Positions 3 through 5,982 of a stretch of 5,982 bases of DNA are shown piece after piece. The stretch covers positions 1 through 5,982 of the forward strand of contig RFHZ01000672.1 in the NCBI GenBank assembly GCA_003696125.1. The letters run 5' to 3'. Positions within the stretch are counted from its first letter, which is position 1; each line of letters begins with the position of its first letter. Both the position numbers and the translations under genes were made by a program. Origin of the DNA: Nitrospinota bacterium. GTDB lineage: Bacteria; Tectomicrobia; Entotheonellia; J063. The notes beneath the pieces are model-generated. The model was not told where the DNA came from. It did not search any database and worked only from the letters and a program-made list of their open reading frames with translations.

Positions 3-1103
3 GTTACCGCGTATAATCACAATAACGAAGTAGCCTCTCCCCCGGTTATCCGCAAGCTCACCGTTACCTCTCCCTTTCCCATTGTCAGCCAGGCTCCCCC
101 TTCGCAGGTTCCCTCTGCTCAAACGAATCCTCCCATAAAGACCGGCAAGCCAGAAAAGGGTTCTCAGCCCCAGTCTACCACATCGACCACCACTCCTCCC
201 CAGGAGCCTCCGGCTTCCAAACCTCCCACCGTTGCTTCCCAGTCCTCCCAGGCTCCACCCACCTCCTCGTCAACGGCGACCCAGACTCCAGAGCAGGCCC
301 AACCGGAGCAGCAGAAGCCAGAGGTACGCCCTCGCCGTCCCGCTCTATACGTACTGGCCATCGGCATCAACCGCTATCGTGATCGTGCCCTGTGGCTCAA
401 GTACGCGGTTCCCGATGCCCAGGCGATTACGGCCAGAATCCGGGAAATTGGGGAACCCCTTTTCCCCGATATCCGGGTGACCGAACTCTTTGACGACCAG
501 GCTACCTTTGCCGGTATCGATGCAGCCTTTCAACGGATCGCTTCCCAGGCCCAGACCAAGGATGTCTTTGTGCTGTACATGGCCGGTCATGGCAAGACCC
601 TGGATGGACGGTACTACTTCCTGCCGCAGGATTTTCGCTATCGCAACGAAGATTCGATACGCCGGGAAGCGATCAATCAGGATCATCTCCAGCGCTGGCT
701 GGCCAGCATCCCTGCCCGCAAAAGCCTGGTCCTGATCGACACCTGTGAGAGCGGCTCCTTTACGCAATCCCTGGCCCTGCTGCGGGGAATGGTGGAGAAG
801 ACGGCGATTGAAAAACTGATCCGCGCTACCGGCCGGGCAACCATCGTGGCAGCCACCGATGTGCAACCTGCTCTGGAGGGGTACAGGGGACACGGGGTCT
901 TTACCTACGTCCTGCTGGAAGCCCTCCAGCAGGCAGACAAAAACTTCGGGAACCGGGATGGGATCACCAGCATCTTCGAGTTGGCGCAATACGTGGACGA
1001 CCGGGTACCGGAAGTGACCCTGCAGGCATTCCAGTTTGAACAGTTCCCCCAGGTCTACATGCTGGGCAGCGACTTCCCGATCGGCCTGGCCCAAAGGAAC
1101 TGA
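3..1103 (+). CDS. Caspase-like (peptidase C14) family protein, 5' partial
   Basis: Cysteine protease of the caspase/metacaspase-like clan, probably cleaving protein substrates in signalling or cell-death-like responses. The frame is open from base 3 to the TGA at 1101-1103 (366 visible residues) with no convincing start, so the 5' end lies outside the window. Residues 1-22 (VTAYNHNNEVASPP...) look like the last strands of an Ig-like or beta domain such as often precedes the caspase domain in bacterial WD40-caspase proteins. Residues 23-112 are a low-complexity Pro/Ser/Thr/Gln linker. The caspase fold starts at about residue 114 with LYVLAIGINRY. Catalytic His is in MAGHG (H196, bases 588-590) and catalytic Cys in LIDTCESGS (C248, bases 744-746). 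The C-terminus (DGITSIFELAQYV, then EQFPQVYMLGSDFP) matches the usual end of these bacterial domains. A GTG at 477 would remove the first caspase strand, so I reject it as the start. The gene converges on the cyclase gene. Family assignment is firm; substrate and upstream domains are unknown. Confidence 0.9.
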   Translation, partial: VTAYNHNNEVASPPVIRKLTVTSPFPIVSQAPPSQVPSAQTNPPIKTGKPEKGSQPQSTTSTTTPPQEPPASKPPTVASQSSQAPPTSSSTATQTPEQAQPEQQKPEVRPRRPALYVLAIGINRYRDRALWLKYAVPDAQAITARIREIGEPLFPDIRVTELFDDQATFAGIDAAFQRIASQAQTKDVFVLYMAGHGKTLDGRYYFLPQDFRYRNEDSIRREAINQDHLQRWLASIPARKSLVLIDTCESGSFTQSLALLRGMVEKTAIEKLIRATGRATIVAATDVQPALEGYRGHGVFTYVLLEALQQADKNFGNRDGITSIFELAQYVDDRVPEVTLQAFQFEQFPQVYMLGSDFPIGLAQRN

Positions 1104-1108
1104 GAGGA

Positions 1109-3301
1109 CTACTTCTCTGTTAAGGCGATCGATCCATCCCAATCCGCCGGGAGGTCCTCTGCTTTGAGGGTCTCCAGGCGGGTGAGCATCTCCTGGGCGG
1201 CCAGATCGCCTGGTCGCAGGGATAGGGCTTCGTCAAACTTCGCACGGGCCAGGGTAAAGTCCCGTGCCAGATAGGCTGCAAATCCTTCCTGGTAGGCCTG
1301 GTAGTATGACAGATCATCTGCATCGATTGGCTCTGTACCCTCACCGTAGACCTCAAAGACCCGGACCGCTTTGGCTTTTCCCTTGACCCTGATCACATCC
1401 AGTACCCGGGTCCGGAACAGCCCTGGGGTCAGACAGGCATGGGTGAATTCCGAGATCATGATCGTGGTCCCATACCGCTTGTTGGCTCCTTCCAGGCGGG
1501 AGGCGAGATTGACCGCATCGCCGATGACCGTATAATCGAAGATCTGGTGTGAACCCATGTTCCCGATGATCATCGGTCCTGTATTGATCCCTACCCGGCA
1601 CTCCAGGGCCGGCAATCCTCGCGCTTTCCATCGCTGGCGGAGCTCTTGCAGACGGCGCTGCATCTTTAACGCCGTTCTTACCGCCCGGTCCGCATGATCG
1701 GTAAGGGGTAGTGGTGCCCCAAATTCGGCCATGATGGCGTCTCCCTGGTATTTATCGATGATCCCTCCTTCGGCCAGAATGAGATCGGTCATCTCGGTGA
1801 GGTACTGGTTGAGCAGGCTGACCAGTTCCGGCGGGGACATCTGCTCGGCAATGGTGGTAAAGCCGGCCAGATCGGAGAAGAGCACGGAGAGGACCCGCTC
1901 CTCTCCCCCCAGTTGCAGCAATTCCGGGTGCATCAACAGCTCATTGACCACCGTTTCCGGGACGTACTTGGCAAACGCATTGCGGATAAAGGCCTGCTCT
2001 CGCGAAACAGCTATCTGCAACCCCACCACCAGGCCGAAAAAGAGGAAGAGAAAGCTCCCACCCACCGTGACCACTGGGAAGAGGGAAAAGCGGGTAAACT
2101 GGACCCAGGTAAATACGATAATGCTTATAAATCCGGCTCCACCGGTGGCATAGAGGATCCAGGAGGGACGGGGAAGGGCGGCCACCCCTACGATGATCCC
2201 CAGAAGAGCGATAAACCCCAGGACCTGCCAGAAGGACCACTGGCGGTAAAAGGTATGGGTCAACAATCCGTTCAAGAGGGAGGTGTGCAGGATGATCAAG
2301 GGAACCTCTGCTTCCAGGGGGGTCTGGCCCAGATCCGAAGTCCCCACCGCGATATCGCCGATAAAGACGAACTTCCCTTCCAAGAACTCCAGCAAATTTC
2401 CTCGTAAATCCTCCTGCTGGAAATACTGGAGGAGGCGGTGGGCTTCCATCTTGGGGAAATCCCGCGCCCACACCTGGGGGTAAGGGATAAAGACCCGTCC
2501 CCGTTCATCGATCGGGATAACCACATCTCGCTCCAGGAAACTCCCGGGGGTGGCCGGGATCACCACTTCCCGTCCCCAGTGCACCAGGACCTTTTCCCAG
2601 GGGACCTGGACGTAGTCGAGAAACATGGATAAGGCCAGGGTGGGGAAATAGAGGGAATCGATCTTTAAGAGGAGGGGAAGGTGACGATATACCCCATCCG
2701 CATCACTCGTGGCACTGATATGGCCGGCATTGAACGCTGCAGCAGCGAATGCATCCATTTGCATTAAGGCATGCGTGGCATAAAACGGTTGCGGCGTTCC
2801 TCTCTCACGGGGCTTGTGCAGGTATTCGGAACGCAGGCGCTCATAAGCCTCTCCAGCTTCCCATCTGAAGGGGCGAGGCTCAGGAGAATAGGCAAAGCCG
2901 ATGGGGAGGTAGACCGAGCCGAGCTGGGCGATGGAGGTGGCAAACTGCTGATCAGCAGCCGGATGGCTGGGACGGGCAAAGATGATATCGTATGCCACCG
3001 CCTCCACTCCTAGTTCGGCGAGAGCGGCATTTATCCTTGCCAGATCGGATCGATCTAAGATGTTTCGACCGAAGGAATCATACGTCTCATCCGTGATGGT
3101 GATGTAGACGATCTGGGAGGAGAGGGGAGGACCGTAACCGTACTCGACGATCCGTCGATAGAAGAGATCGAGCACCTGGAAGTCAGAGGCAGTCCACACC
3201 GTCCCTCGCAAGCTCCAAAAGGCGATCAGGTACCCGAGGAGGCCGGCAACCAGCAGGACGATGAGCTTTACCAGCTTTTTACTTTTTAACGCGAAACTCA
3301 T
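1109..3301 (-). CDS. CHASE2-domain receptor adenylate cyclase (class III) with C-terminal TPR-like segment
   Basis: Membrane receptor predicted to make cAMP from ATP in response to an extracytoplasmic signal; 730 aa, full length. Order of parts: N-terminal membrane helix (about 11-30); extracytoplasmic CHASE2 domain (about 40-345, with the typical ending around TSDLGQTPLEAEVP and a HTSLLNGLL helix); three further membrane helices (about 357-376, 381-400, 407-430); a short linker; class III nucleotidyl cyclase domain (about 468-655); one TPR-like unit (about 664-709). All six key cyclase positions are visible: metal-binding D477 (LFSDLAGF) and D521 (KYQGDAIM), purine-selecting K517 and T591, and transition-state N598 and R602 (GDAVNLASR). 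The Lys/Thr pair is the adenylate-type combination known from cyanobacterial CyaC-like enzymes, so ATP is the favoured substrate. Start ATG at 3301 is preceded by AAGG at 4-5 nt and lies inside the 3' end of the DUF4384 gene, which suggests translational coupling. The stop is 5 bp from the stop of the convergent caspase gene. Confidence 0.95.
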   Translation of the reverse strand: MSFALKSKKLVKLIVLLVAGLLGYLIAFWSLRGTVWTASDFQVLDLFYRRIVEYGYGPPLSSQIVYITITDETYDSFGRNILDRSDLARINAALAELGVEAVAYDIIFARPSHPAADQQFATSIAQLGSVYLPIGFAYSPEPRPFRWEAGEAYERLRSEYLHKPRERGTPQPFYATHALMQMDAFAAAAFNAGHISATSDADGVYRHLPLLLKIDSLYFPTLALSMFLDYVQVPWEKVLVHWGREVVIPATPGSFLERDVVIPIDERGRVFIPYPQVWARDFPKMEAHRLLQYFQQEDLRGNLLEFLEGKFVFIGDIAVGTSDLGQTPLEAEVPLIILHTSLLNGLLTHTFYRQWSFWQVLGFIALLGIIVGVAALPRPSWILYATGGAGFISIIVFTWVQFTRFSLFPVVTVGGSFLFLFFGLVVGLQIAVSREQAFIRNAFAKYVPETVVNELLMHPELLQLGGEERVLSVLFSDLAGFTTIAEQMSPPELVSLLNQYLTEMTDLILAEGGIIDKYQGDAIMAEFGAPLPLTDHADRAVRTALKMQRRLQELRQRWKARGLPALECRVGINTGPMIIGNMGSHQIFDYTVIGDAVNLASRLEGANKRYGTTIMISEFTHACLTPGLFRTRVLDVIRVKGKAKAVRVFEVYGEGTEPIDADDLSYYQAYQEGFAAYLARDFTLARAKFDEALSLRPGDLAAQEMLTRLETLKAEDLPADWDGSIALTEK

Positions 3302-3902
3302 AACGCCTTACGAGGAGCGACTTTCCCGAATAGACCCGGAGCTGAGCGAGGAAGGGGTCTATGCCTTCTCCGTTACCGAGACCTCGCACATTGCCGGCAA
3401 TGGCAAACGGCTTCTCCGGTTGCTGGCCCAGATCGATCCTGCTCTTCCGGAGCAGATCCTCTTCCAGGGAAGCCCATTGGGCATAGGAGGGGTTTTCGGA
3501 GCGGAACAGGGTGAGCAGCTCGGACAGCTCGGTTGGACTGCAGATGATGGTAAAGATCTCCTGTGGCTGTGTCCCCACGATCTGGTAGAATTCGGTAGGG
3601 GCAGGGAGGACCAGGGAAGCGCCCTGGGGAACCTTCTGGCCCTGGTTCAAGAGGGTGACCCGTTTGCGATCGGTATGGACCACATAGACGTACACGTCAT
3701 CCTTCGGCAGCACATAGATCCGCAAGAGATCACCGGCCTTCAGCCTGTCCCTGGCTTTGGCCTGGATGGTACGATCACCCGATTTCCGCTGTATCCCGAT
3801 CTTGGCCCGCACCAGCTCCTCAGGCATGGCCCTGGAAAGGGAAACCAGTACAGAGCATACCATAAGCAATACTGCACTGAGTTTGGGAATATTCATCGCC
3901 AT
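3279..3902 (-). CDS. Secreted DUF4384-domain protein
   Basis: Exported protein of 207 aa and unknown biochemical function. Residues 1-25 form a signal peptide (Lys at 7, then a hydrophobic run ending near SLSRA), so the mature protein should be periplasmic or surface-exposed. The Cys in LLMVC lacks a good lipobox, so I do not call it a lipoprotein. Residues about 53-130 match the DUF4384 pattern: a RLKAGDLLRIYV strand, a VYVYVVHTDRKRVTLLN core, VPQGASLVLPAP, and a FTIICSP strand. DUF4384 is often found with, or fused to, bacterial caspase-like and CHASE2/FecR-type proteins, which fits the two neighbouring genes. The remainder (about 135-207) is not recognised. A second ATG at 3896 has GGAG at 8 nt, while ATG 3902 has GAGG at 6 nt; either start is possible and the product barely changes. 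The 3' end overlaps the cyclase gene by 23 bp, so the two are probably co-translated from one mRNA. Confidence 0.85.
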   Translation of the reverse strand: MAMNIPKLSAVLLMVCSVLVSLSRAMPEELVRAKIGIQRKSGDRTIQAKARDRLKAGDLLRIYVLPKDDVYVYVVHTDRKRVTLLNQGQKVPQGASLVLPAPTEFYQIVGTQPQEIFTIICSPTELSELLTLFRSENPSYAQWASLEEDLLRKSRIDLGQQPEKPFAIAGNVRGLGNGEGIDPFLAQLRVYSGKSLLVRRYEFRVKK

Positions 3903-4131: not shown

Positions 4132-4884
4132 TCAGGAGAGCAACTCTCCCAGCGAGCGAATCACGTGGAGGGAGGCAGGTCGTTCTGCCGGAACCGGCTG
4201 TCCCTTGCGGTTGATCCACACCGGGGTCAGGCCTACCGCCGCTGCCCCGAGTATATCCTCTTTCCAGTTATCCCCCACAAACACCCCTTCCTCTGGCCGG
4301 ATGCCTAAAGCTTCCACGACATGGAGAAAGGTCTCTGCCTTGGGTTTGCGCCACCCCAGCTCGACGGAAATGGCGATCACATCGAACAAAGGGGCCAGTC
4401 CATAGCGGTGCAGGAGCTGGCGGGCGGTTGGTGCATGATCGAAATTGGAGAGGAGTCCGAGCCTGTACCCCCTGGCCCGCAGTTGCGCCAGGAGATCCCG
4501 GTGACAGGTGGGACAGCCGGTTGCCTGCTGGAGGGTGTGCATGTGGGTAGAGAGGACCGCCTCTCGTTGCCGCACCGTCTCCCGGTTCTCCGGGATCCCC
4601 AGCCGGGCAAAGAGACGGCGAAACCGCTCTGTTGAAGGAATCTCTCGCAGCGTCTCTTCCTTCTCCTGCGCTATTTCCCTGGATACGGCTATCAGGGCCT
4701 CCTGGTACCGGGCAAAGGGGATGGCAGGGTAGTAGCGATGGAACACGGGAAAGCTGATGGGAGCAGTTGAGCGCACCTGTCTTCCATGTCGCATCACGGT
4801 CGGCAGCTTTTGCGGATGAAAAAGCACCAGCGTATCGAAGAGATCAAAGAGGATCGCCCGGTAATCATTGCCCGGAAGGAGCAT
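4132..4884 (-). CDS. HAD-superfamily hydrolase (haloacid dehalogenase-like)
   Basis: Cytoplasmic hydrolase of the HAD superfamily, 250 aa, with the helical cap of subfamily I between motifs I and II. Motif I is ILFDLFDTLV with nucleophile D14. The usual second Asp (DxD) is replaced by F16, as in 2-haloacid dehalogenases and some other non-classical members, so phosphatase activity cannot be assumed. Motif II is LGLLSNFD (S146), motif III the Lys of WRKPKAETF (K180), and motif IV VGDNWKED (D205, D210). The cap contains an unusual CPTCH (C124, C127). The substrate is unknown. ATG 4884 has GGAG 6 nt upstream, and the first 20 bp overlap the end of the N0/N1 secretin-like gene, which supports coupled expression. 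The protein ends in a normal HAD C-terminus (VGLTPVWINRKG...), so it looks complete. Confidence 0.92.
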   Translation of the reverse strand: MLLPGNDYRAILFDLFDTLVLFHPQKLPTVMRHGRQVRSTAPISFPVFHRYYPAIPFARYQEALIAVSREIAQEKEETLREIPSTERFRRLFARLGIPENRETVRQREAVLSTHMHTLQQATGCPTCHRDLLAQLRARGYRLGLLSNFDHAPTARQLLHRYGLAPLFDVIAISVELGWRKPKAETFLHVVEALGIRPEEGVFVGDNWKEDILGAAAVGLTPVWINRKGQPVPAERPASLHVIRSLGELLS

Positions 4885-5455
4885 CCTTTTCTCCGCTAAT
4901 CAGCTTAACCAATCGGGCCACATTGGAGGCGTAGTCCACAATGATCAAGGCATTGGTCGGTCGATAGGCGACGATATGGCCTCGCGGGGAAACCAGTGGG
5001 GCCAGCGTACGTGCCAGCTCTTGCGCATCGGCATATTTGAGGGGTACCACCTGTGTCACCACCGCTTCTCTGGGAGACGGTCTGTCCAGTCTGCTCCCTT
5101 TCCGCACCTCGATTCCAGTCGTTTTGGCTTCGGCGGCCGGGATGATCTTGACCACACTCCCCACCGTGACCGTGGTGTACCCCTGCACCTCCAGGATCGA
5201 TTCAAAAAGAGGCCAGAGCTGGTCTTTAGGAATCTTCCCCGGTGCAATCACCGTCACCTTCCCCTTGACCCGACCCGGATCAAAGAGGACCACCTTGCCC
5301 GTCACCTCGCTGATGTACTTGATGACCGTGGCCAGCTCCACCCCCTCGAAGTGGAGGGAGACCAGCGCCTCTTCCTCAGATGGCTGACCGGCCAGGGCCA
5401 AGGTCCAGACCAGCAGGCCGGCCAGGCACCAGAACCAAATCCTCCGGATCTTCAT
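4865..5455 (-). CDS. Stand-alone secretin N0/N1 (GspD-like N-terminal) protein
   Basis: Predicted periplasmic protein of 196 aa. A signal peptide covers residues 1-22 (MKIRR, then a Trp/Leu-rich core ending ALALA). Residues about 31-106 match the N0 (STN-like) domain of type II secretion secretins: VSLHFEGVELATVIKYISEV, TGKVVLFDP, RVKGKVTVIAP, then VGSVVKIIPAAEAK. Residues about 133-190 match the first secretin N1 repeat (VVTQVVPLKYADAQELAR, GHIVAYRPTNALIIVDYASN). GspD proteins are typically about 600-700 aa and continue with N2, N3 and the outer-membrane beta-barrel; here the frame stops right after N1 and the HAD gene follows at once, so no secretin remnant is present. It is either a genuine small protein that binds secretion or pilus machinery, or a truncated gspD paralogue. 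ATG 5455 is the only start that keeps the signal peptide. I withhold the symbol gspD because the pore is missing. Confidence 0.85.
   Translation of the reverse strand: MKIRRIWFWCLAGLLVWTLALAGQPSEEEALVSLHFEGVELATVIKYISEVTGKVVLFDPGRVKGKVTVIAPGKIPKDQLWPLFESILEVQGYTTVTVGSVVKIIPAAEAKTTGIEVRKGSRLDRPSPREAVVTQVVPLKYADAQELARTLAPLVSPRGHIVAYRPTNALIIVDYASNVARLVKLISGEKDAPSGQ
4891..4894 (-). promoter_or_regulatory. Ribosome binding site of the HAD gene inside the upstream coding region
   Basis: GGAG on the minus strand, 6 nt before ATG 4884, lies within the last codons of the secretin-N0/N1 gene. It supports this start and a coupled-translation arrangement. Confidence 0.6.
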
Positions 5456-5475: not shown

Positions 5476-5501
5476 ATAATCTCATCGCCAGGCACACACT
5501 G

Positions 5502-5529
5502 GTAGGGGCGCAGCGCGCTGCGCCCCTAC
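5502..5529. repeat. Perfect 28-bp palindrome, likely dispersed palindromic element
   Basis: Half-site GTAGGGGCGCAGCG is followed immediately by its exact reverse complement, so the element can form a hairpin with no free loop beyond the central bases. No T-run follows on either strand, so it is not a normal intrinsic terminator. GTAGGGGCGC...GCGCCCCTAC palindromes recur in intergenic DNA of many bacteria, which suggests a REP/MITE-like dispersed repeat. It lies 46 bp before the start of the secretin-like gene and may sit in its 5' leader. Confidence 0.8.
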
Positions 5530-5564
5530 GCGCCGAACACGGAAAACTTGACTGCAATAAACCA

Positions 5565-5589
5565 GGCACAAAGGGGCAAAGGCACAAAG
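5565..5589. repeat. GGCACAAAG direct repeat
   Basis: GGCACAAAG occurs at 5565-5573 and 5581-5589, separated by the related GGGCAAA. The three related units are therefore arranged head to tail. This is probably a slippage-derived or dispersed intergenic repeat; no function is visible. Confidence 0.6.
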
Positions 5590-5714: not shown

Positions 5715-5981
5715 TTATTTCCTGCTTACGCCCTCTTTATGGAAAAAGGTATATATCGCCTCGGCCAGCGGACGGGTGATGCCCTCCACCTCTTCCAGTG
5801 CTTCCGGGTTCGCCTCCTGGATGCGCTTCAGGCTCCCAAAATGCCGGAGCAGTTGCTGTTTTCGCTTCTCCCCGATTCCCGGAATCTCATCGAGGGGAGA
5901 GCGAAAGATATCCTGTCGCCGCAGTTGCTTATGGTAGGAGACGGCAAAGCGATGCGCCTCATCCCGGATCTGCTGGAGGAG
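5715..5981 (-). CDS. uvrC: UvrABC excinuclease subunit C, C-terminal fragment (runs off the right edge)
   Basis: Last 88 codons of uvrC, the nuclease subunit of nucleotide excision repair, which incises DNA on both sides of a lesion bound by UvrB. No start is visible because the gene continues beyond the window. The fragment begins LLQQIRDEAHRFAVSYHKQL, the conserved end of the RNase H-like 5'-incision domain. It continues with the tandem helix-hairpin-helix DNA-binding region: LDEIPGIGEKRKQQLLRHFG (first hairpin, about residues 30-49), SLKRIQEA, then VEGITRPLAEAIYTFF (second hairpin, about residues 65-80). A short tail HKEGVSRK precedes the TAA (complement of 5715-5717). This is the classical UvrC C-terminus, so the gene looks intact at its 3' end. 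The 259-bp gap before the next gene argues against tight operon linkage with the secretin-like gene. Confidence 0.93.
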   Translation of the reverse strand, partial: LLQQIRDEAHRFAVSYHKQLRRQDIFRSPLDEIPGIGEKRKQQLLRHFGSLKRIQEANPEALEEVEGITRPLAEAIYTFFHKEGVSRK

Positions 5982-5982
5982 A

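Follow-up and report, generated by a model that had tools for sequence, protein, structure and literature searches.

Genes and features of the locus

The window, by which we mean the whole stretch of 5,982 nucleotides analysed here, is an entire contig (C48:1-5982) of a MAG of 4.18 Mb in 990 contigs. Three genes lie where the original prediction had placed them, between positions 3 and 3902: a caspase-fold (C14) protease on the forward strand and, on the reverse strand, a secreted DUF4384-like protein followed by a CHASE2 receptor with a class III adenylate cyclase output. The caspase and cyclase genes are convergent, their stop codons facing each other 5 bp apart.

The caspase gene (3..1103, + strand) is represented by its 3' part only, since the open reading frame (ORF) runs past the left end of the contig and the 5' end is missing. 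What remains is a Pro/Ser/Thr-rich linker followed by a p20-type domain, matched by Pfam C14 (PF00656; E 1.4e-18, residues 117-352), in which the catalytic dyad of His (YMAGHG) and Cys (IDTCESG) aligns with that of 13 other caspases; both residues are retained in 14 of the 14 aligned sequences. The intact His-Cys domain of the original prediction is borne out by this alignment; the dyad is that of a C14 caspase or orthocaspase, a predicted protease. A PDB sequence search with the protein gave no match at E 0.01. Among NCBIfam models the protein comes closest to the EACC1-associated caspase (NF047832), at 71.3 bits against a curated cut-off of 140 bits, and assignment to that subfamily was rejected on this score.

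The closest relative, in genome G004 (L052/L085), is 46% identical over 249 aa and carries WD40 repeats and an Ig-like stretch ahead of its caspase domain; as assembled, this protein is divided by a stop into two neighbouring in-frame ORFs, one for the WD40 part and one for the caspase part. A TIR gene follows, and no CHASE2 gene occurs within the stretch taken. Next in similarity comes L069, a WD40-caspase that bears a lipoprotein-like signal and is encoded 3.4 kb away from a CHASE2 gene. At its start the window ORF resembles the Ig-like stretch of the closest relative, and the window caspase probably represents the C-terminal portion of a protein of WD40-Ig-like-caspase layout; on account of this resemblance, the missing 5' part would be expected to encode an export signal and a WD40 propeller. 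Retrieval of that part, proposed as a check on the original prediction, failed: the left end of the window matches no other contig of the MAG, and the gene could not be extended leftward. As the window is a complete contig of a fragmented MAG, the start of the caspase is irrecoverable from this assembly. At the right end, positions 5733-5982 overlap G000:C65:3384-3633 by 250 bp at 98% identity, and C65 carries the rest of uvrC; for both reasons the two contigs probably join.

The CHASE2-cyclase gene (3301-1109, - strand) encodes 730 aa. Its CHASE2 domain (PF05226, E 2.3e-36, residues 27-370) has the layout of a CHASE2 receptor, flanked by an N-terminal helix on one side and membrane-spanning segments on the other, with hydrophobic segments near residues 10 (the N-terminal helix), 360 and 410 by hydropathy. 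The class III cyclase domain (Pfam, E 5.5e-26) possesses, as first claimed, all six adenylate-cyclase residues (D477, K517, D521, D589, N598 and R602), that is, two metal-binding Asp, the adenine-selecting Lys and Asp, and the transition-state Asn and Arg, and the protein should make cAMP. This residue set differs in some of the related loci described below. Glu and Lys replace the adenine-selecting Lys and Asp in the CHASE2-cyclases of L078 and L083, which possibly use a substrate other than ATP. A further CHASE2-cyclase (L076:3099-5117) has both metal-binding Asp replaced (by G and T) and is likely inactive, its nearby caspase being kept; a caspase-DUF4384 fusion near this cyclase is truncated by the contig end.

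The first gene of the reverse-strand pair (3902-3279, - strand) encodes the DUF4384-like protein, and its ORF shares 23 bp with that of the cyclase. A signal-like helix at the N-terminus, seen by hydropathy, agrees with the secretion originally proposed. The family name was less secure: Pfam DUF4384 (PF14326) scores 19.9 bits (E 8e-4), below the gathering cut-off of 27 bits, so that we term the protein DUF4384-like, and taken alone the identification is weak. A profile built on the DUF4384-like family does reach proteins above the Pfam cut-off that occupy the same gene position, beside CHASE2-cyclases. The AlphaFold model (mean pLDDT 78) is mainly a beta-sandwich; Foldseek returned no match below E 0.001 and the fold search returned common beta-sandwich matches only, with Z of 8 or less, and consequently we read no function from the fold.

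Upstream lie a HAD-family hydrolase (4132..4884, - strand; Pfam E 1e-22) and an exported protein with GspD N0 and N1-type domains only (4865..5455, - strand; Pfam N0 E 1e-19, Secretin_N E 7e-15), which lacks a secretin pore and whose ORF overlaps that of the hydrolase by 20 bp. In L026 the corresponding pair likewise has a HAD protein upstream, 32% identical to that of the window, and the hydrolase is a possible member of the pair's operon; we do not assign the GspD N0/N1-type protein to the module. In a scan of the window for promoters and terminators, sites were no more numerous than in shuffles. A palindromic repeat at 5499-5574 (core 5502-5529) is dispersed through the MAG in dozens of copies of ~79-100% identity and appears to be REP- or MITE-like.

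A conserved pair and its caspase neighbours

Searching with the cyclase brought up relatives in MAGs whose labels are Pseudomonadota, Myxococcota, Thermodesulfobacteriota and Gemmatimonadota. Five relatives (L011-L014 and L026) share 55-61% identity with it along most of their length and have, in five cases out of five, a DUF4384-like gene immediately 5' of the cyclase, the two ORFs overlapping. One of the five pairs, in G004, a genome of the same class as the window, came to light when the DUF4384-like protein was used as the query; G004 has a second pair on contig C75 (L078). The corresponding profile, run against 297 genomes of the Myxococcota, the phylum of L012, recovered five further distant members (L079-L083), each with a CHASE2-cyclase directly after it; the stretches taken around two other weak matches (L091, L092) contained no CHASE2 gene. 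In the more distant SAR324 loci L016 and L077, the cyclase is flanked on both sides by DUF4384 proteins. The pair is thus found at 13 loci besides the window, which makes it a real unit, and to judge by gene order and overlap it is a conserved overlapping operon.

These 13 loci were gathered without regard to caspases. Six of them have a C14 caspase within 10 kb where 0.46 would be expected (P 2e-6), a 5% chance being assumed for genomes without a caspase count; when L079-L081 are counted once, the figure is four of 11 (P 3e-4). The arrangement varies from locus to locus. In L079, L080 and L081, from three Myxococcota genomes, the caspase, DUF4384 and CHASE2-cyclase genes follow in that order on the same strand, neither gaps nor overlaps reaching ~75 bp; in L077 15 bp separate the end of a caspase-DUF4384 fusion from the CHASE2-cyclase; in L012 a second DUF4384 protein and a caspase come after the pair; and in L013 a TPR-CHAT protein, which has a caspase-like fold, is upstream of the pair. 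The window departs from the tight codirectional trio in that only its pair is codirectional, the convergent caspase standing outside the pair's operon, and the original prediction was right to concede that this orientation weakens the case for a single operon.

Wider samples set limits on the association. The 52 SAR324 genomes contain 89 CHASE2 genes, and for 14 of these a caspase lies no more than 10 kb away, against 0.97 expected, a statistic that is indicative only because the genes include many paralogues. Across 193 diverse genomes, DUF4384 and caspase genes are very strongly associated as neighbours (27 cases, 1.0 expected); among the CHASE2 matches listed, neighbours of the CHASE2-DUF4384 type show weak enrichment (3 cases, 0.47 expected, each of them from the window's class) and those of the CHASE2-caspase type none (1 case, which is the window, 1.06 expected). 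A general link between CHASE2 and caspases was accordingly rejected, the diverse sample being at chance level. The expected co-occurrence of the three families within 10 kb therefore stands for related loci, where it is above chance, and does not extend to CHASE2 and caspases in the diverse sample. Since enrichment is found in the related loci and in SAR324, while the diverse sample is at chance level, the association is lineage-restricted. A tree of 47 caspase domains requires six label changes for the cyclase-module caspases, all of them forced by well-supported branches, and therefore caspases of different subfamilies have been recruited repeatedly. On the genomic evidence, the association between caspase and sensor is real, lineage-restricted and repeatedly assembled.

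Whether the window's own caspase takes part is a separate matter. The functional unit may be the DUF4384-like/CHASE2-cyclase pair alone, and the caspase that ends 5 bp away an unrelated neighbour, which would account for the convergent orientation, for the pairs that lack a C14 caspase (L026, L014, L082 and L083), for the absence of a CHASE2 neighbour from the nearest caspase relative, and for the chance-level CHASE2-caspase count in the 193 genomes, among the CHASE2 matches listed; G004 holds 16 caspases, yet its pair has none beside it. This explanation has to reckon, however, with a 4.18 Mb genome that contains only two caspases, so that one would fall near this CHASE2 gene by chance in ~1% of cases within 10 kb and ~0.2% within 2 kb, and with the recurrence of the trio in other lineages. 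We consider it a possible explanation, if a rather doubtful one. Convergence, the missing N-terminus and the TIR protein adjoining the nearest relative (L085) do count against a place for the window caspase in the module; its membership is nevertheless likely, though unproven.

The caspase and the sensor side

An export signal, whether a signal peptide, a lipoprotein signal or an N-terminal hydrophobic helix, is recognisable in 15 of the 16 neighbouring caspases examined. Twelve of these exceed the hydropathy threshold, in three cases behind a start that seems overlong, and those of L070, L074 and L079 were recognised by eye; the L075 caspase, a very long ORF, has no clear export signal. Most non-module caspases in these genomes look exported too, which means that export is true of this kind of caspase and not specific to the module. 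With regard to output, the SAR324 CHASE2 neighbours of caspases carry a histidine kinase in nine of 14 cases (that of L068 being split over two ORFs); four others are cyclases, and L069 is without an assigned output domain. The constant part across the caspase loci is the CHASE2 sensor side. In the loci with CHASE2-histidine kinase genes beside caspases (L066-L068 and L070-L075), same-strand placement and export signals are the rule, except in L075, and, by eye alone, several also seem to have an N-terminal stretch of FecR type.

According to the original prediction, cAMP rises in answer to a cue sensed by CHASE2 and/or DUF4384 and then works together with the caspase in the control of stress or cell fate. 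The gene association, together with the intact adenylate-cyclase residues and caspase dyad, would be in keeping with such wiring, but the export signals on neighbouring caspases, the exchange of the cyclase for a histidine kinase and the L076 cyclase that has lost its metal-binding residues all argue that the caspase is probably no target of cAMP; moreover, the caspases scanned showed no domain for binding cyclic nucleotides. We regard this wiring as very unlikely, and an exported caspase acting with the sensor probably fits better than a cytoplasmic caspase acting after cAMP.

Our essential proposal, to which we give an even chance of being correct, is that the window encodes an envelope-to-cytoplasm signalling unit in which a caspase is a recurrent but optional partner on the sensor side and not a target of cAMP. 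It builds on the observed conservation of the pair, neighbourhood enrichment, intact catalytic residues, export signals of neighbouring caspases and exchange of output domains; the physical contacts, the direction of the signal and the export of the window caspase itself are what we infer. The DUF4384-like protein and the CHASE2 domain would meet at the inner membrane, on its outer face, and jointly sense a cue from the envelope or the outside, and the cyclase would then supply cAMP for a CRP-type regulator. The caspase, most likely exported too, would work on the sensor side, where it could cleave, for instance, the DUF4384-like protein or the CHASE2 domain, or a substrate in the envelope, the cut then being the cue itself. 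A stronger and, in our judgement, improbable version makes the exported caspase the input of the CHASE2 receptor, such that proteolysis of the DUF4384-like partner or of CHASE2 at the outer face gates cAMP synthesis or, in SAR324, the histidine kinase; were this true, caspases in these bacteria would be envelope sensors and not executioners.

Known systems and wider meaning

Elements of this arrangement have analogues elsewhere. In Sinorhizobium meliloti, the CHASE2 adenylate/guanylate cyclases CyaD1, CyaD2 and CyaK work with the envelope protein NsrA (PMC13001267), and this serves as a precedent for a CHASE2 cyclase with an envelope partner. As in the window, CHASE2 is joined to a class III cyclase and the signal is sensed through an envelope protein, but NsrA is an outer-membrane beta-barrel, whereas the conserved partner of the window cyclase is a secreted, DUF4384-like protein whose ORF overlaps that of the cyclase and which often has a caspase nearby. 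The Burkholderia BiofilmReg operon comprises a response regulator, a LysM-FecR protein and a CHASE2 histidine kinase (PMC5192318); it shares a CHASE2 receptor with an exported partner, and a CHASE2-histidine kinase like those of the SAR324 caspase loci, but its output is a kinase where the window has a cyclase, and a caspase is not mentioned in PMC5192318. In cyanobacteria, DUF4384 is associated with orthocaspases (PMC7475262), which is the same link without a CHASE2 cyclase.

Caspase and CHASE2 are also linked in Trichodesmium erythraeum, where they are fused and the authors predict a cytoplasmic caspase domain (PMC3501461), and in EACC2-caspase proteins, which carry a C-terminal CHASE2 (PMC8195603). 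In both the link lies within one protein, while the window-type loci have separate genes and, unlike the Trichodesmium fusion, export signals on the complete neighbouring caspases. The fusions reported in EACC2 systems (PMC8195603) do raise the question of a conflict or programmed-death system, with the caspase as executioner and the cyclase as alarm, as in EACC-caspase or Pycsar-like systems. That the best NCBIfam match of the window caspase is to the EACC1-associated subfamily and that a TIR gene follows its nearest relative would suit such a role; the match scores 71 against a cut-off of 140, however, the window contains no EACC, TRADD-N, STAND or Pycsar effector gene, and the sensor is an envelope receptor, all of which leaves us thinking this role highly improbable.

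The caspase-CHASE2 fusion, the DUF4384-orthocaspase link, the CHASE2 cyclase with an envelope protein and the FecR-CHASE2 kinase operon were thus known already. The operon section of the PMC3501461 survey mentions neither CHASE2 nor cyclases, and we found no description of a three-gene caspase-DUF4384-CHASE2-cyclase operon in the open-access literature, of which our coverage was incomplete.

The codirectional trio operon and the caspase/CHASE2-kinase loci offer bacterial caspase homologues a concrete and testable signalling partner, and would place the protease in the envelope. For the DUF4384 family, on which we found hardly any open-access literature, they suggest that partnering CHASE2 receptors is a likely role. 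Caspases also cluster with DUF4384 proteins, some of them fused, at G435:C203 (L095) and on G002:C1 at ~286 kb and at 3.41-3.44 Mb.
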